Source: Lachnospiraceae bacterium
Lineage (GTDB): Bacteria > Bacillota > Clostridia > Lachnospirales > Lachnospiraceae
DNA: 64,000 nucleotides
Assembly (NCBI GenBank): GCA_030526195.1
Contig: JAUNDG010000006.1
Span: 1-64,000 of the forward strand
Direction of reading: 5' to 3'
A program made the position numbers and the translations under genes. Shown one piece after another: positions 5,569-50,658 of the stretch. The notes beneath the pieces were generated by a model. It had not been told where the DNA came from. It saw only the letters and a program-made list of their open reading frames with translations, and searched no databases. The stretch's first letter is position 1, and every line of letters begins with the position of its first letter.

Positions 5569-6507
5569 TTAGGCTTCGTCCGCAAACAGCGGTGTTGACA
5601 GGTAACGATCACCGGTATCCGGCAGCAGGACCACGATGGTCTTCCCTTCATTTTCGGGACGCTTGGCCAGCTCGATAGCCGCTGTCACGGCAGCACCTGA
5701 GGAAATGCCCACCAGGACACCTTCCTGACGGCCGATTAGACGACCGCCGGCAAAAGCAGCCTCATTTTCGACAGTAATGATCTCATCGTAAATCTCAGTG
5801 TTCAGGGTATCCGGCACGAAACCGGCACCGATGCCCTGGATCTTATGAGCCCCTGCCCGGCCTTCGGACAGCACCGGTGAGGAAGCGGGCTCAACAGCCA
5901 CAACCTTCACGTCGGCCTTCTGAGACTTCAGAAAACCGCCCACGCCTGAGACAGTGCCGCCTGTGCCGACACCGGCCACGAAGATATCCACGTCGCCATC
6001 AGTGTCTGCCCAGATTTCCGGACCTGTGGTCTCGAAATGAGCCTTCGGGTTGGCCGGGTTCACAAACTGCCCCGGGATAAAGCTGTTGGGGATTTCGGCG
6101 GCCAGCTCGTCAGCCTTGGCGATGGCACCCTTCATGCCCTTGGCCCCCTCTGTCAGCACCAGTTCGGCGCCGTAGGCTTTCATCAGTGTCCGGCGTTCCA
6201 CGGACATGGTTTCCGGCATGGTGATGATGATGCGATAACCTCTGGCGGCAGCCACGGCAGCCAGGCCGATACCGGTGTTGCCGCTGGTGGGCTCGATGAT
6301 GACGGAATCCGGTTTCAGGACGCCAGCCTTTTCGGCCTCATCGATCATAGCCCTGGCGATACGGTCCTTAACAGAACCGGCCGGGTTAAAATATTCAAGC
6401 TTAGCCAGGACTCTGGCCTTCAGACCTTCTGATTTTTCAATGTGTGTCAGTTCAAGAAGCGGTGTGTGGCCGATAAGCTGATCGGCTGATGTATAGATTT
6501 TTCCCAT
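5569..6507 (-). CDS. cysK: Cysteine synthase (O-acetylserine sulfhydrylase)
   Basis: PLP enzyme that makes L-cysteine from O-acetylserine and sulfide. The 312-residue protein has the canonical [10 protein letters not shown] with the PLP lysine (about residue 45), the TSGNTGIG substrate loop, the [12 protein letters not shown] phosphate-binding loop, and [11 protein letters not shown] near the C-terminus. The start was placed at the ATG after GAGGATATTG; an upstream in-frame ATG lacks the family sequence. It lies 125 bp downstream of metY on the same strand, so it is probably in the metY transcript or served by a weak -10 TATAAT at 6599-6604. Together with metY and the divergent iscS it forms a sulfur-assimilation cluster. 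Confidence 0.95.
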
Positions 6508-6632
6508 AACAATATCCTCATTTTTCTCGTCAGGCAGGGGCCTCATTTTCGAAAGGATGAGCGCCGCCCGGCCTGTCATATCGTCTTATTTAAGTCCCAT
6601 TATACCCTTTTTTCCAGGTAACATTCTATTCA

Positions 6633-7913
6633 TTAAAGAGCGGCAAAGCCTTTTTCCAGATCGGCGATGATGTCGTCGATGTGTTCGGTACCGATGGAAA
6701 GGCGGATCGTGCCCTGTGTGATACCGCTGCCGGCCAGCTCTTCATCATTCATCTGAGAATGTGTGGTGGAAGCCGGGTGGATGACAAGAGACTTCACGTC
6801 AGCTACGTTAGCCAGCAGTGAGAAGATTTCCAGGTTGTCGATGAACTTGAAGGCTGCTTCACGGCCACCCTTGATCTCGAATGTGAAAATGGAGCCGCCG
6901 CCGTTCGGGAAGTACTTCTCATACAGCGCATGGTCCGGATGATCCGGCAGAGACGGATGATTGACCTTGACAACAGCGTCCTTAGTCTGCAGATATTCGA
7001 TGACCTTCTTGGCATTTTCGGCATGGCGATCAAGACGAAGGGACAGAGTCTCGGCGCCCTGCAGCAGCAGGAAGGCATTGAACGGAGAAATGGTGGCACC
7101 CTCGTCGCGCAGCAGAATGGCACGGATGTATGTCACGAAGGCAGCCGGGCCGGCAGCATCGGCGAAGGAAACGCCGTGGTAGCTCGGGTTCGGAGCGGCG
7201 ATCTGCGGATAGCGACTGGAAGCCTTCCAGTCGAAGGTACCGCCGTCAACGATGATACCGCCCAGTGTGGTGCCGTGACCGCCGATGAACTTGGTGGCGG
7301 AATGGATCACGATGTCAGCGCCGTGTTCGATGGGACGGATGAGGTACGGTGTGCCGAATGTGTTATCGATAAGAAGCGGCAGACCATGGCGATGAGCGAT
7401 GGCGGCAACAGCATCGATATCAGGAATGTCGCTGTTGGGGTTACCCAGTGTTTCAATGAAAACAGCCTTTGTGTTGTCCTGAATAGCGGCCTCAACTTCC
7501 TCAATGTTATGCACATCCACAAATGTAGTGGTGATGCCGAAGCGCTTCAGTGTGTGTGCCAGCAGATTGTAGGAACCGCCGTAAATGGTTTTCTGAGCCA
7601 CAATGTGATCACCGCTGCCGGCCACAGCCTGCAGAGCATAAGTGATAGCTGCGGCGCCGCTGGCCAGTGCCAGAGCTGCGCTGCCGCCTTCAAGAGCGGC
7701 GATACGTTCTTCCAGAACAGCCTGTGTTGAGTTTGTCAGTCTGCCGTAGATGTTACCGGCATCAGCCAGGCCAAAACGATCGGCGGCATGCTGGGCATTA
7801 TGGAAAACGTAAGAGGTTGTCTGGTAAATCGGGACGGCTCTGGAATCGGTTACCGGATCCGGCTGTTCCTGACCTGCGTGAAGCTGAAGTGTTTCAAATC
7901 TATAATTGCTCAT
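6633..7913 (-). CDS. metY: O-acetylhomoserine sulfhydrylase
   Basis: PLP enzyme of the Cys/Met metabolism family that converts O-acetylhomoserine and sulfide to homocysteine (direct sulfhydrylation). At 426 residues it has the length typical of MetY rather than the shorter cystathionine synthases. Landmarks: TTSYVF near residue 32, [10 protein letters not shown], the PLP lysine in [13 protein letters not shown] (about residue 210), and the C-terminal [10 protein letters not shown] and [12 protein letters not shown]. The ribosome-binding site AGAAGGAGATAACC is strong. The 5' leader is about 390 nt and contains a Cys/Met-rich 31-codon ORF and an intrinsic terminator, which points to control by cysteine and methionine supply. 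Confidence 0.94.
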
Positions 7914-8020
7914 AATGGTTATCTCCTTCTATTAAATAGGAAGCGGTACGCGGTTGGGACCGCTTCGTCTGTCTGTCAAAAATGGTTTATCGAAACCCTT
8001 GCGGGTTTTACATTTCAGAA

Positions 8021-8055
8021 AATAAAAAATCCGGCGTTCCAAACGGGGCACCGGC
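8021..8055 (-). terminator. Leader attenuator upstream of metY
   Basis: On the minus strand CCGGTG (8050-8055) pairs with CGCCGG (8031-8036), with extra CC/GG pairs inside, followed by the T-run ATTTTTTATT (8021-8030). It begins 23 nt after the leader ORF stop codon (8079) and lies about 110 nt before the metY start, the position expected of an attenuator. A second small hairpin with AAACCC/GGGTTT arms lies at 7993-8008. Confidence 0.75.
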
Positions 8056-8078
8056 GTCAAAAAGTAAGCTCTCCTGTA

Positions 8079-8174
8079 TCAACACATGTGACACATACTC
8101 TGACACTCTTCGACCCCCGACATTCGACACATGCCGTACATGAGTGAAAACTGACAAGTGATAAGCTTCTTCAT
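8079..8174 (-). CDS. Cys/Met-rich leader peptide of metY
   Basis: 31-codon ORF, too short for automatic calling, read by hand codon by codon. Cys is at 7, 16, 24, 28 and 31; Met is at 1, 12, 15, 18, 27 and 30. Nine of the last twenty residues are Cys or Met and the peptide ends MCHMC before TGA. The ribosome-binding site AAAGGAG has an 8-nt spacing to ATG. It lies between a good promoter (8311-8339) and an intrinsic terminator (8021-8055), upstream of metY and cysK. This is the layout of ribosome-mediated attenuation, where scarce Cys-tRNA or Met-tRNA would stall the ribosome and prevent termination. The peptide has no other recognisable feature. No SAM riboswitch or T-box was seen in the same leader. 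Confidence 0.8.
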   Translation of the reverse strand: MKKLITCQFSLMYGMCRMSGVEECQSMCHMC

Positions 8175-8310
8175 AATTGAATCTCCTTTCTCTGAGGTGA
8201 AATCTTCGGATCATCCTGTGGCCGATGTCTGACATCCGACCGTTTTTTCTTAACTGACGATTCCCATTCGTTATTGTCTCGTCCGAAGTACCAACCTCTT
8301 GATGGGTCTT

Positions 8311-8339
8311 ATTCTACACCCACTCCCCTACCGCGTCAA
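8311..8339 (-). promoter_or_regulatory. Promoter of the leader-metY transcript
   Basis: Minus strand TTGACG (8334-8339), 17-bp spacer, TAGAAT (8311-8316). Transcription would start near 8304, about 130 nt before the leader ORF. The -35 box is embedded in ACCTATTGACG, which shares the ACCTATT half-site with the divergent isc operator. Confidence 0.65.
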
Positions 8340-8374
8340 TAGGTAATTTATATTTTTTTTACACCTTCATGGAC

Positions 8375-8403: not shown

Positions 8404-8410
8404 TCAATTG

Positions 8411-8429
8411 ACCTATTTTTTTAGTAGGT
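8411..8429 (+). promoter_or_regulatory. Candidate Rrf2/IscR-type operator
   Basis: Inverted repeat ACCTA-N9-TAGGT with an AT-rich centre, just downstream of the isc -10 box and covering the expected transcription start. Its form fits Rrf2-family operators (AT-rich centre, short GC-containing arms). The gene for such a regulator is the last of this operon, so autorepression is the simplest reading. Binding is inferred only. Confidence 0.45.
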
Positions 8430-8517
8430 AGAGAATGACTCATTCTCGTTCCCCACGGCCCAGCCCGGCCCGATCGGAACGACATGCCATAACTCTTTTG
8501 AAAGGAGACCTTATCTT

Positions 8518-9818: not shown

Positions 9819-10256
9819 ATGGCTTTATATAGCGAAAAAGTAATGGACCATTTCCGTAATCCCCGCAACGTCGGTGTGATTGAAGATGCCGATGGTGTCG
9901 GCGAAGTCGGTAATGCCAAGTGCGGCGACATCATGAAGATTTATCTGAAGATCAACGATGATGTGATCGAAGATTGCAAGTTCGAGACTTTCGGCTGCGG
10001 CAGCGCCATCGCTTCCAGCTCTATGGCCACCGAGCTCATCAAGGGTCAGCCCCTGTCAAAGGCTCTTGAGCTGACAAACAAAGCCGTCACAGAATCTCTG
10101 GGCGGTCTGCCGGCACACAAGATCCACTGCTCCGTTCTGGCTGAACAGGCCATCAAACGGGCCCTGCGCGACTATTATGACAAGAATGGCATCGACTATG
10201 ACCACGAACTGCTGGCCGACAAAGATGCCCACGAGGAAGGCGAAGAAGAAGAATGA
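9819..10256 (+). CDS. iscU: Iron-sulfur cluster scaffold IscU/NifU-N
   Basis: 145-residue scaffold on which Fe-S clusters are assembled from iron and IscS-derived sulfur. The three cluster-ligand cysteines are visible in AKCGDIMK (about residue 35), GCGSAIASSS (about 61) and HCSVLAEQAI (about 104). The C-terminus carries an acidic tail (EEGEEEE) beyond the usual ~130-residue core, which is common in clostridial homologues. The ribosome-binding site is GAAAGAAGG. The final ATGA overlaps the start of the downstream Rrf2 gene, so the two are translationally coupled. Confidence 0.95.
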   Translation: MALYSEKVMDHFRNPRNVGVIEDADGVGEVGNAKCGDIMKIYLKINDDVIEDCKFETFGCGSAIASSSMATELIKGQPLSKALELTNKAVTESLGGLPAHKIHCSVLAEQAIKRALRDYYDKNGIDYDHELLADKDAHEEGEEEE

Positions 10257-10696
10257 TTTCCACAAGAGGCCGTTATGCTCTGCGCGTTCTCATTTACCTG
10301 GCGGAGCATAGCAAGGATGAACGAATCCCGCTCAAAGCTATTTCTGCCAGCGAAGGTATTTCGCAGAAATATCTTGAGAGCATCATGACGACTCTGTCAA
10401 AGGCCGGGATGGTGGATGCCATCCACGGCAAGGGTGGCGGCTATAAACTGAACCGCACACCGGATCAGTACACCGTCGGCGAGCTCCTGCGGCTCACCGA
10501 GACCACACTGGCCCCGGTTTCCTGCCTGGGCAGCGCTGTCAATCCCTGCGAACGGGCTGACTCCTGCCGGACACTGCCGATCTGGATCAAGCTCAACAAG
10601 CTGATGAACGACTATCTCGACAGCGTGACCATCGAGGACCTGATGAACACCTCGCCCCAGTACGACGATAGCCTCTACTGGCCCTGCGGGCTGTAA
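10253..10696 (+). CDS. Rrf2 family regulator, IscR-like
   Basis: 147-residue winged-helix repressor. The N-terminus MISTRGRYALRVLIYLA and the recognition region ISASEGISQKYLESIMTTLSKAGMV are typical of the family. Cys91, Cys99 and Cys105 match the three cysteines that hold a [2Fe-2S] cluster in IscR, so it probably senses Fe-S status. CymR-type Rrf2 proteins, which sense cysteine through CysK, lack these cysteines; given the neighbouring cysK-metY genes a dual role cannot be excluded. It overlaps iscU by 4 bp. The likely target is the ACCTA-N9-TAGGT site at 8411-8429. Confidence 0.88.
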   Translation: MISTRGRYALRVLIYLAEHSKDERIPLKAISASEGISQKYLESIMTTLSKAGMVDAIHGKGGGYKLNRTPDQYTVGELLRLTETTLAPVSCLGSAVNPCERADSCRTLPIWIKLNKLMNDYLDSVTIEDLMNTSPQYDDSLYWPCGL

Positions 10697-39160: not shown

Positions 39161-39233
39161 AGCGCGAGACGGGACTCGAACCCGCGACCCCCACCTTGGC
39201 AAGGTGGTGCTCCACCAACTGAGCCACTCGCGC
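39161..39233 (-). tRNA. tRNA-Gly (GCC), copy 1
   Basis: Cloverleaf read by hand on the minus strand: acceptor GCGCGAG/CTCGCGC, D-arm GCTCAGTTGGTGGAGC, anticodon stem CCACC/GGTGG with loop TTGCCAA (anticodon GCC), T-arm with GGTTCGAGTCC, discriminator T. CCA is not encoded. 73 nt. It is followed by a sequence nearly identical to that after copy 2. Confidence 0.97.
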
Positions 39234-39324: not shown

Positions 39325-39397
39325 AGCGCGAGACGGGACTCGAACCCGCGACCCCCACCTTGGCAAGGTGGTGCTCCACCAACTGAGCCACTCGCGC
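39325..39397 (-). tRNA. tRNA-Gly (GCC), copy 2
   Basis: Identical to copy 1 over the whole 73 nt, 164 bp away in the same direction. The downstream flank (CAGCCGTCCAACTT) is also shared, so the tandem pair arose by duplication of a unit including its 3' flank. Confidence 0.97.
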
Positions 39398-49687: not shown

Positions 49688-50473
49688 TTACTTCTGTTTG
49701 CGACTTTCTTTCAAAGCAGCGATCTCATCGAAAATGTAGTCGTTGAGCACCTTGATGTATGTGCCCTTCATACCGGATGAGCGGGACTCGATAACACCGG
49801 CGCTTTCGAACTTTCTCAGCGCATTGACGATGACGGAGCGGGTGATGCCGACTCTGTCGGCGATCTTGCTGGCCACCAGATTACCCTCAGAGCCTTCCAG
49901 TTCATCAAAGATATGAATAATAGCTTCCATTTCGGAATAAGACAGTGTTGAGAAAGCGGATTTGACAACCTGGATCCGTCTTTCGTCCTCTGCATTTTCC
50001 TCATCCACGGAACGCATCATTTCAAGACCCACAACCGTGGTGCCGTACTCACTGACGATAATATCGTCGATGTCATAGTTTCTGTCGCCTCTGTAAGCAA
50101 AGACTGTGCCCAGACGTTCACCGGCGATCTCAATGGGATTGATGATGCCGATCAGACGATCCACACCTTCACCCTCAAACCCCAGCATGGCCAGGTTCAC
50201 ATTTTCCTTTGTTGACAGGACACCCAGGAAGCGTTCATTCAGGAGCGGGTCCACCAAACCGCCCACATGACTGACCACCAGCTCGTCCAGTTCCTTGACC
50301 TCGTCACAAAGACCGGCCCCCAGCACCTTACCCTTACAGCTCAGCACCAGGATGTTGGATTCCAGTGTCTCCACTAAAACTTTGCAGATGTCATTAAAGA
50401 CCACCTTTGTTGTGTTGGTATTGTGGAGCAACTTATTGATTTTCCGTGTTTTGTCTAACAATTGAACACTCAT
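49688..50473 (-). CDS. codY: Global transcriptional regulator CodY
   Basis: 261-residue GTP- and branched-chain-amino-acid-sensing repressor of nutrient-limitation genes. The N-terminal GAF domain (about 1-155) starts LLDKTRKINKLLH; the C-terminal winged helix has ASKIADRVGITRSVIVNALRKFESAG (quoted as ADRVGITRSVIVNALRK) and MKGTYIKVLND. The start is the ATG of MSVQLLDK at 50473; seven codons upstream are open but not conserved. The order comM-dprA-topA-codY is a common arrangement in the phylum. Confidence 0.96.
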   Translation of the reverse strand: MSVQLLDKTRKINKLLHNTNTTKVVFNDICKVLVETLESNILVLSCKGKVLGAGLCDEVKELDELVVSHVGGLVDPLLNERFLGVLSTKENVNLAMLGFEGEGVDRLIGIINPIEIAGERLGTVFAYRGDRNYDIDDIIVSEYGTTVVGLEMMRSVDEENAEDERRIQVVKSAFSTLSYSEMEAIIHIFDELEGSEGNLVASKIADRVGITRSVIVNALRKFESAGVIESRSSGMKGTYIKVLNDYIFDEIAALKESRKQK

Positions 50474-50658
50474 GCCGTTCCCCTTTCCTAACAAAAATAC
50501 CGTGAAAAAAGCAAGTAAAACCCTATGTTTTCAGCCGCTTGTGGCTTTCTTAAATCGCCCCGATAATAGCACAAAGCGGCCGCAATTTCAACGAAATCAC
50601 GACCACTTTTCATTTAATTTATAAACATTTCAGAATATTGCAGGCTTTTGCAGTTTTT

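Follow-up and report, generated by a model that had tools for sequence, protein, structure and literature searches.

A probable leader-peptide attenuator for sulfur amino acid supply upstream of metY in Lachnospiraceae, and the CGA codon of related leaders

The metY-cysK locus and its promoter region

The window, a 64-kb stretch of DNA from a Lachnospiraceae bacterium analysed here as a whole, carries metY, encoding O-acetylhomoserine/O-acetylserine sulfhydrylase, on the reverse strand at 6633-7913 (TIGR01326, 638.9 bits, above cutoff), followed downstream by cysK, encoding cysteine synthase A, at 5569-6579 on the same strand (TIGR01139, 453.9 bits, above cutoff). Ahead of both genes, and also on the reverse strand, lies a short open reading frame (ORF) of 31 amino acids, MKKLITCQFSLMYGMCRMSGVEECQSMCHMC (8079-8174), which is preceded by the Shine-Dalgarno (SD) sequence AAAGGAG at 8183-8189 and is rich in Cys (five residues) and Met (six), these two making up 9 of its final 20 residues. 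The signature codons TGT-CGA-ATG (Cys-Arg-Met; 8121-8129, with CGA at 8126-8124 and ATG at 8123-8121) mark a candidate stall site. Between the ORF and metY, folding places an intrinsic terminator on the reverse strand at 8024-8054 (stem 8054-8045/8040-8031), whose hairpin of −12.5 kcal/mol pairs 8054-8049 with 8031-8036 and 8046-8045 with 8039-8040 and is followed by the U-run TTTTTT at 8029-8024; a simple terminator scan did not have this hairpin among its listed terminators. The sigma-70-type promoter of metY, TTGACG-17 nt-TAGAAT, is found at 8311-8339 on the reverse strand (10/12 matches in a promoter scan) and ends approximately 137 nt upstream of the leader start codon. The scan covered a 3.6-kb region and gave four promoter-like sites, where shuffled sequence gave 2.7 on average, so that the promoter has no significance by itself.

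With that reservation on the promoter, each of these features agrees with an earlier note made from the sequence, which had described the 31-codon ORF with its AAAGGAG site, its Cys and Met codons, the promoter, the GC-rich hairpin with its T-run, and their position upstream of metY and cysK. That note had also seen no SAM riboswitch or T-box at the leader, and at the Rfam gathering threshold nothing matches there, either in the window, where the sole matches are two tRNAs, or in the loci of 20 relatives. A plasmid collection searched with 7914-8339 gave no match. Elsewhere in the window, two adjacent tRNA-Gly(GCC) genes with identical Rfam scores lie at 39161-39233 and 39325-39397, and a codY-family gene at 49691-50494, all on the reverse strand.

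Ranked by Cys+Met fraction (0.333), the leader ORF is second among the 174 SD-led ORFs of 20-60 amino acids in the window, the first (start 22304, reverse strand) being inside a long ORF. Its composition by itself is thus unusual but not decisive. Judged from sequence, the window has two features of a ribosome-mediated transcription attenuator, namely an SD-led short ORF with Cys/Met codons and an intrinsic terminator between this ORF and metY, and the decisive evidence comes from the family of leaders in relatives described below.

The statement of the earlier note that CymR was not seen requires correction, given an Rrf2-family regulator gene (IscR/CymR-like; 10253-10696, forward strand) and an operator-like repeat over the −35 element of the metY promoter. 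The gene ends the divergent nifS-nifU-rrf2 cluster and scores 126.7 bits against the TIGR00738 cutoff of 73.3; it is below the curated cutoffs for CymR (NF047409, 93.2 versus 195 bits) and for IscR (106 bits). The repeat, ACCTATTGACGCGGTAGGGG, is imperfect and covers 8325-8344 on the reverse strand, where relatives show ACCTATTGAC...TAGTAGGT. Of 45 leader-bearing upstream regions, 23 contain ACCTATTGAC, a further 12 contain CCTATTGAC or TATTGAC, and 10 contain none of these. On the nifS side, a divergent promoter-like site at 8408-8436 (9/12 matches) contains the palindrome ACCTATTTTTTTAGTAGGT at 8411-8429 on the forward strand. The repeat at 8325-8344 is a candidate site of the Rrf2-family regulator, the palindromes at both divergent promoters make promoter-level sulfur/Fe-S control probable, and a repressor of initiation likely acts together with the attenuator.

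A family of leaders in related genomes

Loci of metY were taken from named genomes (80 loci), from 42 genomes of the same genus (41 with a match, 30 loci taken), and from a search of 61 genomes. Up to 600 nt before metY were read for SD-led ORFs of 8-70 codons, giving 117 distinct regions. An SD-led ORF with an Arg-Met pair occurs in 60 of these regions, some of the 60 being chance ORFs, and none occurs in the other 57, two of which are only 69 and 120 nt long. Seven relatives rechecked under looser rules had neither CGAATG nor CGATGT and no convincing leader. Grouped by peptide, 50 leader rows, among them three pairs of near copies, comprise type A (26, including the window; C-R-M), type B (20; N-F-R-x-G-R-M), and type C (4; H/Y-P-R-M at the end, one with an extra W). 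The Arg codon of the Arg-Met pair is CGA in 49 of these 50, and CGT in L061, a count that covers the CRM/CMRM/CSRM, GRM, and PRM classes and leaves out 13 other Arg-Met ORFs. Of the ORFs left out, all four further Met/Cys-rich leaders (L010, L013, L126, and the first ORF of L043) have CGA, as does one of the nine chance-looking Arg-Met ORFs that serve as a control. When secondary Arg-Met pairs inside the 50 leaders are counted as well, 5 of 56 pairs are not CGA.

The earlier note had held that its reading would fail if the short ORF were not conserved in relatives; leader ORFs with in-frame CGA-ATG, mostly with Cys/Met codons around it, precede metY in many of them, and the records of the carriers name Lachnospiraceae, Roseburia, Ruminococcus, Oscillibacter, and Faecalibacterium. 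Its expectation that Cys/Met codons would be conserved above others was not borne out, as the most conserved codon is instead the Arg codon CGA before Met/Cys. Further Met/Cys-rich leader types with in-frame CGA-ATG exist in the same genus (L013, L126, L010, and L125), and two terminator-like hairpins can be seen by eye after the L013 and L126 leaders. One metY copy (G018:C113:683-1957) has a single in-frame TGA stop codon.

Type A leaders follow the order ATG-TGT-TGT-CGA-ATG, five free nucleotides, CTCCCGGGCA, and later ATGGCCGGGG, a consensus from which single leaders differ, and many of them carry CGA-TGT near the end of the ORF. In the consensus, the downstream GCCATTTGCCCGGGAG is also the 5′ arm of the terminator, which is closed by CCCGGGC and a U-run; a separate script found a terminator-like hairpin beside a U-run in 24 of 26 type A leaders. 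The antiterminator is formed by CTCCCGGGCA/TGCCCGGGAG together with ATGGC/GCCAT. In a 26-row alignment (A1, which omits L014 with its long insert, the near copies L015 and L105, L076, and the window), 91.2% of its cells are paired and seven pairs have changed on both sides. Its covariation of 0.184 compares with 0.110 in shuffles, none of 500 of which reach it, and with at most 0.091 in slid versions, and RNAalifold found the same 10-pair helix unprompted. Among 91 matches from a related genus, 91.8% is paired, nine pairs have changed on both sides, and the covariation is 0.192 versus 0.098, although this alignment was fitted to covariance model R1 and therefore leans towards the model. The terminator helix is 85.9% paired with no covariation beyond shuffles, as expected since its arm is near-palindromic. 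A mutually exclusive antiterminator is conserved by covariation in the relatives.

The switch was modelled in 26 leaders (L053, which has no U-run, L015, L105, L076, and the window being omitted) by masking the RNA up to a distance of 9, 11, or 13 nt counted from the first nucleotide of the A-site codon, with downstream RNA only and no kinetics. The median terminator probability stays at 0.03-0.04 while the last Cys codon occupies the A site and then, over the three leads, reaches 0.04-0.69 at CGA, 0.43-0.89 at ATG, and 0.90-0.97 one codon later; two to three codons past CGA it is 0.97. The modelled fold thus changes state across Cys-CGA-Met. L016 showed no switch in the first version of the fold modelling.

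For the window copy, folding predicts an antiterminator 5′ arm at 8104-8117, inside the ORF directly after CGA-ATG, that forms 13 pairs with a 3′ arm at 8053-8066 (both on the reverse strand), the latter overlapping the terminator base by 2 nt. This helix is preferred over the 5-bp CGGGG/CCCCG pairing at 8115-8119 that had been offered in the earlier note as the competing structure, and which is missing from the minimum-energy folds. In the model, the probability of the helix is approximately 0.9 with the ribosome at or before Cys-Arg and is lost after Met. The helix unpairs only two basal terminator pairs, whose probability falls from approximately 1.0 to approximately 0.45, and an equal effect on these pairs was seen with shuffled segments in 195 of 400 cases. 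As modelled, the predicted switch of the window is weak and no better than shuffles. The fold z-score of the whole leader, −1.2, is not exceptional (−1.2 to −2.0 over the fold tests), and the ORF continues past the antiterminator arm, so that the arm could pair again once the ribosome has moved on.

The window leader keeps TGT-CGA-ATG, the terminator, and their order, without the CCCGGG core. Over the whole 64-kb window, model R1 gives a single match, which is the leader, and a weak one (7.4 bits, E 0.45); in the genome search with R1 at E 0.01, the window leader is not among the matches. Because of this E value and the equal performance of shuffles, the window leader is assigned to the family by anatomy, codons, and gene rather than by structure statistics. 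A DNA search of 61 genomes with 640 nt found no relative with the exact window leader, which makes the evidence for the window copy architectural; among the matches listed over the leader region all are at most 60 nt long, and the best of those listed (33 nt, E 0.002, L028) was rejected, as it falls inside a 490-amino-acid rho-like ORF. The sequence TGYCGAATGY occurs at 13 places in the own genome, and no second leader was found around three of those outside the window.

The leaders are not confined to metY. Searching with the strict pattern CGAATGN5YTCYCGGRC gave matches in 16 of the 42 genomes of the genus and 11 of 391 genomes of the class, some of them chance; on reading, L152 and L153 (own genome, no leader around), L162, L169, L171, and L173 were judged to be such. 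The genuine matches precede metY, polar-amino-acid ABC transporter genes, a cysK 3′ fragment (L156), genes for MetQ-like lipoproteins, and a cystathionine-enzyme-like gene. In G023, a leader stands before a solute-binding protein gene approximately 1 kb ahead of metY, with NCBIfam scores below cutoffs, and a transporter of this type may be specific for cystine. Since model R1 was built from CGAATG-bearing leaders, its matches lean to CGAATG. They are found in 14 of the 42 same-genus genomes and in 47 of 59 genomes of the related genus (that of G287), the latter at 101 places at E 0.01 with up to five per genome. Ninety of these 101 were examined, and of the 11 lowest-ranked, one was in a fetched stretch and forms the 91st row of alignment A2. 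The anchor codons are CGAATG in 85 of the 90, and 82 precede MetQ/NlpA-like (41), cystathionine-synthase/lyase-like (31), second OAH-sulfhydrylase-like (7), or metY (3) genes; the others stand before LysR-type genes (6), an iron alcohol dehydrogenase gene (1), and a contig end (1). Gene classes were assigned by sequence motif, with L199 put in the MetQ class by eye, and an NCBIfam check of one representative per class gave none above a curated cutoff, so the names are family-level only. The gene for the iron-containing alcohol dehydrogenase (L217:1708-2865, forward strand) is the one clearly non-sulfur target among the 90, and the LysR-type gene, a candidate sulfur regulator, follows type A leaders in L287, L292, L294, L303, L316, and L320. 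A leader-peptide regulon covering metY, MetQ-like and other amino-acid transporter, cystathionine-enzyme-like, and LysR-type genes gives a testable sulfur role to transporters and PLP enzymes of uncertain specificity.

Type B leaders are conserved in another way. Across 19 of them, synonymous codon changes leave the peptide FxxLxRxN[FY]RxG intact. The N, R, and G of NFRxG never vary, the L, R, and F/Y that precede them hardly do, and six different codons serve for the Arg of NFR and five for the Arg four residues before it. A script looking for a terminator right behind the type B uORF found one in 0 of 18 (two of these being Val variants), versus 24 of 26 in type A, although L076 has a terminator visible by eye that the script missed. 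As a nearby terminator is absent from most type B leaders, the leaders do not all fit a single mechanism. The records of type B carriers, as seen among the 80 named-genome metY loci, include Ruminococcus, Faecalibacterium, Oscillibacter, and Treponema, with T. porcinum having a variant in which Val replaces the last Arg. A search of 398 genomes of the phylum with a model of the type B uORF (R2) gave 13 weak partial matches (E 0.003-0.01), which were judged to be chance. Upstream of metY in L043 and L111 there are tandem leaders, in which a type B uORF comes after a Met/Cys-rich leader whose terminator-like hairpin was recognised by eye.

The CGA codon before Met and Cys

Some of the ORF and type B sets were located by CGAATG (or CG[AT]ATG), and the anchor codon of these sets proves nothing because CGAATG was the search key; the unbiased counts are the peptide-grouped and the non-anchor ones. 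Among non-anchor Arg codons, those before Met/Cys are 16 of 19 for CGA versus 12 of 149 for the others in the first leader set (Fisher 2.5e-12), and 84 of 93 versus 10 of 268 in the related genus (Fisher 1e-59), values that overstate independence because the sequences are related. CGATGT is in frame in 14 of 14 cases in the first set and in 76 of 85 in the second, and frame was not part of the selection. By comparison, CGA accounts for 45 of 1080 Arg codons in the 42 long ORFs of the window, including 3 of the 57 Arg codons before Met/Cys, and for 31 of 1843 Arg codons in metY copies (duplicate loci kept), none of them before Met/Cys. Since CGA is rare in ordinary genes and in leaders stands almost only before Met/Cys, the rule operates at the level of the codon. 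In leader peptides, CGA before Met/Cys exemplifies near-absolute selection at the codon level, and it offers a natural setting for asking whether a wobble codon tunes ribosome pausing or reports tRNA modification.

Proposed mechanism and alternative explanations

The leader is likely to attenuate transcription, by way of a translating ribosome, according to the supply of sulfur amino acids. A ribosome would follow RNA polymerase and translate the leader ORF. Given sufficient charged tRNACys and tRNAMet, it would cross Cys-CGA-Met and the next segment, upon which the terminator would form and metY-cysK would be off. When Cys, and probably also Met, is short, the ribosome would stall at TGT-CGA-ATG, and the downstream segment would stay free to pair with the 5′ side of the terminator, so that transcription would go on. 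The CGA codon is rare, its decoding presumably falls to tRNA-Arg(ICG), and it would strengthen the pause; in the preferred reading, it lengthens the pause at the hungry codon after it. In a Salmonella his-leader assay, CGA and CGA-containing Arg pairs relieved attenuation (PMC4046918). The diverged antiterminator of the window would work like that of the family. The proposal in the earlier note of a Cys/Met leader-peptide attenuator upstream of metY is supported, mainly through the relatives, while its competing pairing, its absence of CymR, and its expectation about the conserved codons have had to be amended.

A chance Cys/Met ORF before an ordinary terminator, with metY controlled by an Rrf2-type repressor only, would account for the weak structure statistics of the window copy, the operator-like repeat at the promoter, and the seven rechecked relatives without a convincing leader, but the recurrence of TGT-CGA-ATG, SD, terminator, and gene context in relatives makes coincidence quite improbable. 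The long conserved pairing and the conserved unpaired CGAATG could likewise belong to a metabolite-binding riboswitch or a protein-binding RNA in which the ORF is incidental. Such an element is highly improbable given the lack of Rfam matches at the leader (gathering threshold, window and 20 relatives' loci), the in-frame placement of CGATGT in both sets, and the conservation of type B at the peptide level despite synonymous changes. The same synonymous changes, with up to six codons for a conserved residue (the last R-M being fixed by the CGAATG selection), would fit a nascent peptide that arrests the ribosome without codon hunger, for which type B, FxxLxRxN[FY]RxGRM, is the clearest case and a candidate new arrest peptide. 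Arrest could act via translation, RNA decay, or Rho, in keeping with the script result of no terminator next to the uORF in all 18 type B leaders, L076 having one by eye, and with L111, where a stop codon comes right after Arg-Met and no Cys is there. Peptide selection does not explain the CGA of type B, however, because this codon is fixed at the codon level in 20 of 20 rows chosen by peptide. In type A, moreover, the residues before RM vary and the fold switches at Cys codons, and the window peptide is without the NFRxGRM motif, so that arrest by the peptide is unlikely as the explanation.

CGA itself might be the sensor. Its decoding by tRNA-Arg(ICG) would depend on s2C32, a 2-thiocytidine at tRNA position 32 that TtcA makes from cysteine sulfur with the help of an Fe-S cluster, and the leader would read sulfur/Fe-S status through this codon and not, or not only, via charged tRNACys and tRNAMet. 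According to two reports, E. coli tRNA-Arg(ICG) with s2C32 cannot wobble-bind CGA (PMC5372741), and s2C32 needs sulfur from IscS (cysteine) and an Fe-S enzyme (PMC5372739). The recurrence of CGA across unlike leaders (types A, B, and C, the further types, and the window), the in-frame CGATGT of the first set (14/14), and the divergent neighbours nifS and nifU fit this idea, as does the tRNA list of the own genome, which has tRNA-Arg ACG, CCG, and CCT and no UCG, although the list is incomplete, tRNACys being missing too, and the absence of tRNA-Arg(UCG) is weak evidence. The simple direction is wrong, since thiolated tRNA, as present when sulfur is replete, should hold the ribosome at CGA, a position that still permits antitermination at leads of 9-11 nt, and in B. 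subtilis four CGA codons caused no slowing of translation (PMC10454642). A sensor role for CGA is accordingly an outside chance. It is rather improbable that a leader-peptide sulfur regulon of Clostridia, with type B also in Treponema, is built on CGA and senses sulfur/Fe-S status through s2C32-sensitive decoding by an inosine-containing tRNA-Arg beside charged tRNACys and tRNAMet; if it were true, the CGA codon would be a sulfur meter read through tRNA modification. The preferred reading remains attenuation by a ribosome pausing at the Cys-CGA-Met codons.

SAM riboswitches, T-boxes, and CymR are the usual controls of sulfur genes in Bacillota. S-box (SAM-I) and T-box elements exert termination control over partly the same kind of genes; they are unlike the window leader, where Rfam has no match at the gathering threshold. 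In the own genome, SAM-I matches once (C25) and T-box twice (C7 above and C17 below cutoff), and none of these matches is on the metY contig. Promoter control by CymR/IscR (Rrf2) resembles what the window offers in its Rrf2-family gene and operator-like palindrome, but it acts at initiation, as a second layer and not in place of the leader. Classical amino acid leader-peptide attenuators are those of the trp, his, and ilv operons of proteobacteria. The metY leaders share with them an SD-led short ORF, codons for the regulated amino acid, a stall-dependent antiterminator, and a terminator before the biosynthetic gene, and differ in concerning sulfur amino acids in Clostridia, in an antiterminator arm placed within the ORF immediately behind the sensing codons, and in the near-invariant CGA. 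A literature text search found no paper with NFRFGRM, NFRNGRM, MCCRML, FRFGRMC, or MCCCRM, and no description of the leader regulon or the CGA rule, most subscription papers being outside the search.

Within Bacillota, leader-peptide attenuation is described for the ilv-leu leader of Staphylococcus aureus (PMC5794164) and for a his leader upstream of hisS/hisZ in bacilli (PMC2965389), while aminoacyl-tRNA synthetase genes of Firmicutes have T-boxes and no classical attenuation according to one survey (PMC1262725). The cysteine attenuator uORFC-8-2 upstream of cysS in Rhodobacterales, for which ribosome-mediated attenuation was inferred (PMC8632094), is like type A in its tandem Cys codons within a uORF and its U-run terminator; compared by description only, it belongs to another phylum and another gene, and the excerpted text mentions no CGA-ATG. 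In mycobacteria and other actinobacteria, Cys leader ORFs precede cys operons with no conserved terminator hairpins, according to the same survey (PMC1262725), and are similar to the metY leaders as Cys-codon leader ORFs before cysteine genes. The mycobacterial polycysteine ORFs are leaderless, judging by the title of the cited Canestrari 2020, whereas the window ORF has an SD and a promoter-like site upstream. Type B is like the actinobacterial Cys ORFs in lacking a nearby terminator, and unlike them in having a peptide motif of its own.
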